In this document: in pieces, positions 1 to 915 of the stretch
Position numbering within the stretch: the stretch's first letter is position 1
How the letters are laid out: every line of letters starts with the position of its first letter
Assembly: GCA_023251075.1 (NCBI GenBank)
Contig: JAHEZM010000034.1
Coordinates: forward strand, 1-33,045
DNA from: Flavobacteriales bacterium
GTDB taxonomy: Bacteria; Bacteroidota; Bacteroidia; Flavobacteriales_C; GCA-002722245
DNA length: 33,045 nucleotides
Direction: 5' to 3'
Notes under the pieces: generated by a model
Database searches by the model: none
Told to the model about the DNA's origin: nothing
The model's input: the letters and a program-made list of their open reading frames with translations, nothing else
Made by a program: the position numbers and the translations under genes

Positions 1-47
1 CATTTCTCTTGAGTGTTTAATGAAGTGATAATTTCTATTAATTCCAT
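1..47 (-). CDS. possible 5' end of a gene running out of the window
   Basis: On the minus strand an ATG at 47-45 opens a frame that stays open to the window edge and reads MELIEIITSLNTQEK. A promoter-like TTTCTTTG, one base off TAnnTTTG, lies at 68-61, which leaves a leader of about 13 bases. Fifteen residues are too few to name a family. The call rests on the open frame and the promoter-like box, and it may be chance. Confidence 0.35.
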   Translation of the reverse strand, partial: MELIEIITSLNTQEK

Positions 48-117
48 AAGTTTTTTCTTTCAAAGAAACACTTACAGACCGTATTCTATTTACGGTTTGC
101 CTTAATATGGGTCATTA

Positions 118-216
118 CCCTCTAAGAGGGATTAATTAGCGCTCCCAATCTTTTTAGATATAAGGTGATAAAAACAGTTCTGAGTATAGTATAACTAATC
201 CCAATCCCTCTTAGAG
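118..216. repeat. left inverted palindrome pair flanking the DUF559 gene
   Basis: CTCTAAGAGGGATT at 120-133 is repeated exactly in inverse orientation at 203-216 (AATCCCTCTTAGAG). The left copy is itself a small hairpin (CCCTCT-A-AGAGGG, 118-130). The inner copy is preceded by ACTAATC and followed by CGGTG and purine-rich sequence. The same order is seen in the right-hand element at 721-775. The pair therefore looks like two head-to-head REP-like units. The remaining bases from 48 to 264 hold no gene that I can support. Confidence 0.7.
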
Positions 217-264
217 AAGAGCGGTGCGAAAAGGCTTTTGAGCGCTGCAGGGAGATGGACCTTA

Positions 265-666
265 TTAATCAAAATTAGAAACTACTTTACTTTCCAAATT
301 CAACAACCTTTCTCTTTCTTTCATTTCAAAAATTATTGTACGTTCAACATTTTCCAGATTCTGCATCACCTCTTCATCATGAAATCGTAAAGTTTTATAT
401 CCTAATTCTGCTAATCTTTCATCGCGAATAATATCTTCTTCATATTTGAAATTATGTGAATAGCCATCAACTTCAATAACCAATTTCAATTTTCGACACA
501 TGAAATCAGTTATATAATTGTCAATCGGTCGTTGTCGTAAAAATGTATATCCAGTAAGTTTATTTTTTAAAAGTGACGACCACAATTTAATTTCGCTGAA
601 AGTTGAAGCTTTGCGTAAATGACGAGCAAAGCCATTAAGCTGTTTGTTGTAATTATTTTGATGCAT
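265..666 (-). CDS. DUF559 family (Vsr-like) endonuclease-domain protein
   Basis: A 133-residue protein of the DUF559 family, small proteins with a PD-(D/E)XK nuclease fold related to very-short-patch-repair and restriction-type nucleases. Family hallmarks are in order: SEIKLW (24-29), FLRQRPI (42-48), DF (54-55), IEVDGYSH (64-71), RDERLAELGY (81-90) and LRFHDEEV (93-100). The likely catalytic set is D54 and E65-x-D67. The frame stays open upstream to 831, but those codons run through the flanking palindrome. I chose the ATG at 666 because family similarity starts there and a TATTTTCG promoter-like box sits 17 bases upstream (684-691). DUF559 copies are usually solitary and of unknown role. 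Both sides of this one carry inverted REP-like repeats, which suggests it belongs to a mobile or repeat-associated unit. Substrate and activity are not established. Confidence 0.85.
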   Translation of the reverse strand: MHQNNYNKQLNGFARHLRKASTFSEIKLWSSLLKNKLTGYTFLRQRPIDNYITDFMCRKLKLVIEVDGYSHNFKYEEDIIRDERLAELGYKTLRFHDEEVMQNLENVERTIIFEMKERERLLNLESKVVSNFD

Positions 667-683
667 AAGTTTAGTTAGTGTAG

Positions 684-691
684 CGAAAATA
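684..691 (-). promoter_or_regulatory. -7 promoter element for the DUF559 gene
   Basis: Reads TATTTTCG on the minus strand, one base off the Bacteroidota consensus TAnnTTTG, with the ATG 17 bases downstream. The same TTCG variant precedes several housekeeping genes in this window, so the nuclease gene appears to have a host-type promoter. Confidence 0.5.
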
Positions 692-721
692 ATAAAATCT
701 CTTTTTATGTGGTACGGGTTA

Positions 722-859
722 CTAATCTTTCTCCTCGGAGGAGGAGAGTGTGTAAAGGCCGGTGAAGGGGAAGAGGATGGATTAAGTATTATTGTAAATC
801 CATCCTCTTTCAGCCGCACAAGCAAAATCACACTCTCCTCCTCCGAGGAGAAAGATTAG
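722..859. repeat. right nested inverted repeat (31-bp perfect arms)
   Basis: Bases 722-752 are repeated perfectly in inverse orientation at 829-859 (31 bp, cores CTCCTCGGAGGAG and CTCCTCCGAGGAG). Inside them a second perfect 13-bp inverted repeat, AAGAGGATGGATT at 771-783, pairs with 797-809 across a 13-base loop. The whole could fold into one long interrupted hairpin. The gap between the DUF559 start (666) and the histidine kinase start (916) consists mainly of this element. Confidence 0.9.
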
Positions 860-915
860 CACGCCATTTCATGAAAAACCACACGTAACTAAACATTTTT
901 CCGTAATTTCACCTC

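Follow-up and report, generated by a model that had tools for sequence, protein, structure and literature searches.

The region at positions 118-859 of the window, by which we mean the whole 33,045-nt stretch of DNA analyzed here, is probably (we put the likelihood at about 0.6) a copy of a selfish REPtron-like family, in which the gene of an EDxHD/Vsr-like DUF559 nuclease lies between inverted hairpin units, gene-less doublets of such units are non-autonomous, and the nuclease would cut or nick its cognate stems. As far as sequence comparison goes, the palindromic units and the DUF559 gene were shown to be a matched set. The simplest reading would be a REPtron/REPIN-like element with a Vsr-like nuclease replacing the Y1 transposase, and the data point to a counterpart, not described so far, of the REP repeats that transposases drive.

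DUF559 is a large family with unknown function, and no PD-(D/E)XK-type nuclease is known to transpose on its own. In open-access full text, to which our literature search was confined, we found no paper connecting DUF559 with palindromes, with insertion in frame or with tRNA synthetases.

The nuclease gene and the palindromic units of the window

The initial annotation, made from the sequence alone, described three inverted pairs, and all of them were confirmed in the window, with every stated coordinate and sequence correct: a 31-nt perfect pair (722-752 and 829-859) with a nested 13-nt pair (771-783 and 797-809) to the right of the gene, and a 14-nt perfect pair (120-133 and 203-216) to the left of it. 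The RNA fold of the right-hand structure has an energy of -103 kcal/mol, compared to a mean of -44 for shuffled sequences (z = -13), and its 18-nt core has two matches in the window, while none is expected by chance. The left pair by itself folds barely better than shuffled sequences (z = -1.05); it is nevertheless real, because its unit recurs at other sites. Rfam yielded no match within the window. The features are listed in Table 1.

Table 1. Features of the DUF559 locus in the window, with the sequences and comparisons on which each is based
Feature	Positions	Strand	Sequence or evidence
Insertion-sequence-like element end, inside the outer left palindrome, at the contig edge	1..118	-	terminal GGGTAATGACCC on the minus strand; ORF start MELIEIITSLNTQEK...
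Outer left palindromic unit in reverse orientation, a remnant truncated by the insertion sequence	118..158	-	perfect 14-nt complement to 203-216; complete in the orthologous G001 locus
Inner left palindromic unit, adjoining the 3' end of DUF559	195..264	+	ACTAATCCC, stem CCCTCTTAGAGAAGAG, CGGTGCG, tail GCTGCAGGGAGATGGA; matches further copies by BLAST; orthologous unit in G001
DUF559 nuclease gene, 133 aa from ATG 666 (likely start)	265..666	-	PF04480, 6.2e-32; profile matches to PDB 3hrl and I-Bth0305I
Right doublet, forward unit	721..784	+	stem CTCCTCGGAGGAGGAGAG, tail GGGGAAGAGGATGGATT; inverted arms, copies elsewhere, covarying alignment
Right doublet, reverse unit, forming together with 721-784 a REPIN-like hairpin without a gene	796..860	-	fold z -13; gene-less copies on C4 and C14; covarying stem

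The only gene of the region was identified, in agreement with the initial annotation, as a DUF559 nuclease with a Vsr-like fold (PF04480, E = 6e-32; 110.1 bits, the curated cut-off being 20.6). It likely starts with the ATG at 666; an alternative ORF of 188 aa, beginning with the GTG at 831, reads through the palindrome. The family profile matches NGO0050 (PDB 3hrl, 1.8e-31) and the homing endonuclease I-Bth0305I (PDB 3r3p, 2e-6), and the profile and fold comparison groups DUF559 with these two proteins and with Vsr. The aligned domain shows no variation at residues E57, D59, H63 and D70. The dN/dS ratios are 0.07-0.16 for DUF559 pairs with dS of 0.5-0.85, free and embedded copies being alike, and 0.11 for the window gene and its ortholog L071, for which dS is saturated. 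Judging by these substitution patterns, the nuclease is shown to be under purifying selection, with its active site intact.

The suggestion that four related units surround the gene was right in part: the units are real and belong to a repeat family, but the right pair is an independent doublet of another subfamily. The segment 721-860 is a full doublet without a gene and belongs to a sister subfamily; this doublet also stands alone at C4:34499 and C14:28907 of the same genome and therefore is not the DUF559 gene's own right-hand unit. The outer left unit (118-140) is broken at position 118 by the insertion-sequence-like element, which interrupts the palindromic unit and lies outside the DUF559 cassette. 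Contigs C4 and C21 also end with the sequence of this element next to palindromes, in a diverged form on C21. The element, recognized by its GGGTAATGACCC end and MELIEIITSLNTQEK ORF start, is seen in a palindrome stem at three contig ends (window 1-118, G000:C4 and G000:C21), which suggests an insertion sequence targeting these palindromes and breaking the assembly.

In the orthologous locus of a congener (G001:C38), two inverted units directly flank the DUF559 gene. Both loci have ispG - palindromes - DUF559 - palindromes - histidine kinase in this order, read with a gap, as the ispG side of the window contig beyond the insertion sequence is not assembled; hence, the insertion is older than the split of the two species. 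In the comparison of empty and filled sites proposed in the initial annotation, three other congeners (G002-G004) have no DUF559 insertion at this locus, but a clean empty site was not found among G000-G004. In the orthologous region, G002 and G004 have ispG, a methyltransferase gene and the kinase gene, G003 has only the latter two, and the methyltransferase gene is absent there in G000 and G001. In G002, a long hairpin of the GTCATCCTGA class is located downstream of ispG (L347), in the intergenic region that holds the DUF559 locus in G000 and G001.

Palindromes and DUF559 genes in the genus and in other taxa

Contrary to what would be expected of a structure unique to one locus, the palindromes recur in the genome of the window (G000; 3.28 Mb, 45 contigs) and in the genus, represented by the congeners G001-G004. 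The search for genomic copies suggested in the initial annotation was run with positions 700-915 as the query and identified further copies in G000, mostly gene-less inverted doublets of approximately 115-155 bp (C4, C14, C19 and C21). The doublet from C19, matched by the inner left unit of the window (G000:C7:205-263), was in turn used as a BLAST query and matched about a dozen places in G000 and roughly as many in G001, whose congener G003 has tens of them and G002 and G004 a few; all copy numbers, obtained by BLAST and pattern searches, are lower bounds. Sixteen aligned doublets share a hairpin of 39 pairs, 17 of which show compensatory changes on both sides. Multi-copy inverted doublets forming a hairpin, the property that characterizes REPINs, are hence present, while the unit consensus of this 16-sequence alignment contains no GTAG.

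The genus has three DUF559 clades, sometimes coexisting in one genome. Palindromes are highly similar within a clade, but across clades their similarity is at the background level, also when the clades share a genome (permutation p = 2e-4). Within the genus, the palindrome subfamily follows the DUF559 clade and not the genome. A part of the same-clade similarity may reflect vertical inheritance and not cognacy, as in the orthologous pair of the window and L071.

DUF559 genes elsewhere were also found to carry palindromes, with exceptions: C41 of G000 features a cluster with a second DUF559 gene between inverted units, and of 40 DUF559 loci of the class, 32 exceed the 95th percentile of the controls, whereas eight have no matched palindrome pair. 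The median inverted match between upstream and downstream flanks of these 40 loci is 16.75, versus 9 for 232 shifted controls. Among 19 loci from Gammaproteobacteria, 15 exceed all 73 controls. For 53 of 119 DUF559 loci, their own right arm is within the best 5% of all arms. Terminal inverted repeats, the criterion applied to insertion sequences and MITEs, are observed as matched inverted arms of up to about 70-80 nt. As single cases from Cyanobacteria and Alphaproteobacteria, inverted palindromes are present on both sides of a DUF559 locus on a cyanobacterial plasmid and of the DUF559 gene between sufB and sufC in the suf operon of a Sphingomonas parapaucimobilis plasmid (L390, 1480-1890; CACCCCTCCCC palindromes); a Neisseria locus has similar palindromes, but its inverted match is not above the background.

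In Bacteroidia and Gammaproteobacteria, the matching inverted palindromes around DUF559 genes are of a single recognizable type (CTCTCC...GGAGAG). By motif count, palindromes of this CTCTCC type occur on both sides of 21 of 42 and 24 of 79 DUF559 loci in two sets, and on both sides of none of 28 GIY-YIG loci, 27 Y1 loci and 448 shifted controls beside DUF559. The GIY-YIG genes were taken as a negative control and turned out to have different palindromes of their own, GTCATCCTGAG-like and resembling CGTC repeats, which do not flank DUF559. Palindromes of the GTCA-CTGA type are found on both sides of 12 of 28 GIY-YIG, one of 121 DUF559 and none of 27 Y1 loci, so that the DUF559 and GIY-YIG motif counts form a double dissociation. 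In the 60 genomes analyzed, the CTCTCC type is not equally frequent with and without DUF559: it is more common in genomes with DUF559 (Mann-Whitney p = 5.6e-5), and the association persists when the number of Y1 genes and the size of the genome are controlled for (partial r = 0.45, p = 3e-4). Thirteen of the 31 DUF559 genomes hold fewer than two copies of the one pattern searched, which other subfamilies escape.

In-frame insertions into conserved proteins

Many DUF559 domains are part of much longer open frames, 700-1900 aa in length. Pfam places them between the halves of LeuS, IleS, MetG, MetH, RecG, RecJ, a UvrD-type nuclease-helicase, MazG and acetyl-CoA synthetase (Acs), and it shows only DUF559 between these halves, with no intein protein-splicing domains. 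The cassettes are in frame and free of stops, and the peptides at the junctions result from translation of the palindromes (SPSPLERVGERSFGEG and similar); they were found at most 90 aa upstream of DUF559 in 65 of the 93 embedded copies versus 12% of control windows. Embedded copies make up 73 of 80 DUF559 domains, a biased figure, since the profile was made from embedded sequences; a less biased one comes from LeuS, where 17 of 144 proteins, pooled from several searches, contain DUF559.

The LeuS survey covered 149 Bacteroidia genomes, 144 of them with LeuS, and found DUF559 at a first site in eight genomes and at a second site in nine. Gillisia mitskevichiae DSM 19839 and Cellulophaga baltica DSM 24729 are strains with a LeuS gene that carries the insert in frame. 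At the first site, two further genomes have only the palindrome doublet and one has a single unit, all in frame; one LeuS site thus exists in four states: empty, with a single palindrome, with a doublet, and with DUF559 between palindromes. The single LeuS of G001 has its cassette at the first site, where about 450 nt extend from GCCTCACCCC to GGGGTGAGGC; the site is empty in G000 and G002-G004, and these empty sites are too diverged for any target-site duplication to be read. AlphaFold modeling of LeuS with the insert (15 sequences) gave a weak model with DUF559-like secondary structure (mean pLDDT 60, pTM 0.30).

On the DUF559 tree, 36 insertion-site changes are needed, compared to a mean of 76 after shuffling; LeuS site B requires 14 changes, and at least five of them are forced by branches with strong support. 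RecG insertions are mostly inherited, and old, vertically kept ones have no recognizable palindromes. These comparisons show that the cassette has changed its place many times, in part by entering conserved proteins in frame, and that the doublet also moves without the gene.

Two other LeuS proteins have inserts of a different kind. The second insertion site of G094 (L325) contains an in-frame CGTC-like doublet (CGTCACCCTGAACTTGTTTCAGGGT...CATGACG) in the loop used by DUF559 cassettes elsewhere. The first site of G150 (L331) contains about 130 nuclease-like amino acids with neither palindromes nor the DUF559 active-site pattern, perhaps a decayed insertion.

Relation to known elements and candidate movers

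REPtrons and REPINs, the RAYT-associated REPs (PMC3116915, PMC2817692, PMC3733652), share with the present family multi-copy, mostly intergenic inverted palindromic doublets that form hairpins, a dedicated small enzyme gene between its palindromes, and enzyme clades with different cognate repeats. The REPtron analogy drawn in the initial annotation therefore holds for the anatomy, that is, doublets with and without the gene and cognate pairing of enzyme and repeat. The family is not a REPtron proper, because its enzyme is an EDxHD/Vsr-like nuclease and not a Y1 HUH transposase and because the GTAG tag at the repeat end is absent; frequent in-frame intragenic insertion together with the gene is a further difference. 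Rickettsia palindromic elements and other intragenic REPs (PMC3733652) likewise lie in frame in conserved protein genes, but they carry no gene, whereas the DUF559 insert also encodes a putative mobility enzyme. CGTC-tagged REPs, abundant palindromes with no dedicated transposase known (PMC3733652), resemble the DUF559 palindromes in both these respects and differ in sequence class. Small GIY-YIG nuclease genes (L392, at G000:C14:78978-79211, and L393-L420) lie between inverted GTCATCCTGAG... (CGTC-like) palindromes, on both sides in 12 of 28 cases, and GIY-YIG may be the cognate enzyme of the CGTC-type REPs, which are reported to have no transposase.

DUF559 shares a homologous catalytic domain with conserved acidic and histidine residues with EDxHD homing endonucleases of the I-Bth0305I type (PMC3943268; PDB 3r3p). 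This homology fits an explanation that we consider unlikely, though the most serious of the alternatives, namely that another enzyme moves the palindromes and DUF559 is a homing-endonuclease-like parasite settling in the loop of pre-existing doublets; such a parasite would also agree with the excess of gene-less over gene-bearing doublets, the use of the same LeuS site by both, and the palindromes in a few genomes without strong DUF559. On the other hand, DUF559 was the only gene found between these palindromes, which are absent from RAYT/Y1 and GIY-YIG genes, the subfamily follows the DUF559 clade, which is not expected of a late invader lacking co-mobility, and the matched TIR-like arms extend beyond the stem. 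Unlike the EDxHD homing endonucleases, DUF559 is associated with gene-less doublets, has hairpin palindromes at both ends and no self-splicing intron or intein, and occupies many unrelated target genes, a variety which argues against one fixed site.

That classical RAYT/IS200-type transposases move the repeats and DUF559 is mere cargo is very improbable: Y1 transposases are indeed present in 44 of 60 genomes, and REP doublets of such a shape are REPINs where RAYTs act, but the Y1 genes of the same genomes carry different palindromes, their flanks being unlike those of DUF559, and Y1 adds nothing to the palindrome count once DUF559 and genome size are considered (partial r = 0.13, p = 0.32). 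RAYT as the mover was rejected on the flank comparison. Least credible of all is a reading without mobility, with a domesticated host gene next to palindromes that serve as ordinary terminators of transcription or as mRNA hairpins; strong RNA hairpins next to an intergenic gene would look like this, but the palindromes differ between DUF559 clades while left still matches right, gene-less copies are dispersed, and the same arrangement lies in frame within essential genes whose orthologs are empty. The in-frame insertions contradict this immobile reading.

If the REPtron-like reading is correct, DUF559 would recognize the stem of its own palindrome class and cut or nick there, and host repair would copy the unit, the doublet or the doublet with the nuclease gene, either into the break or to sites elsewhere. 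Intragenic insertions would survive only if in frame and in tolerant inter-domain loops, and the host protein would then contain the embedded nuclease as an additional domain. A wider generalization, to which we give slightly less than even odds, is that REP-like palindrome classes are each spread by their own small nuclease, GTAG by Y1, GTCATCCTGAG (CGTC-like) by GIY-YIG and CTCTCC by DUF559, the DUF559 branch being a transposase-free mobile element that also spreads as an in-frame domain of essential proteins.

The CTCTCC-type palindromes are widespread repeats for which we found no reported mover. A cognate pairing of nuclease and repeat gives DUF559 and these palindromes each a testable role, and it bears on the open question of which enzyme mobilizes REPs without RAYT (PMC3733652). 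If true, leuS and other essential genes would be repeated hosts of a selfish nuclease, tolerated in frame and with no need of splicing.
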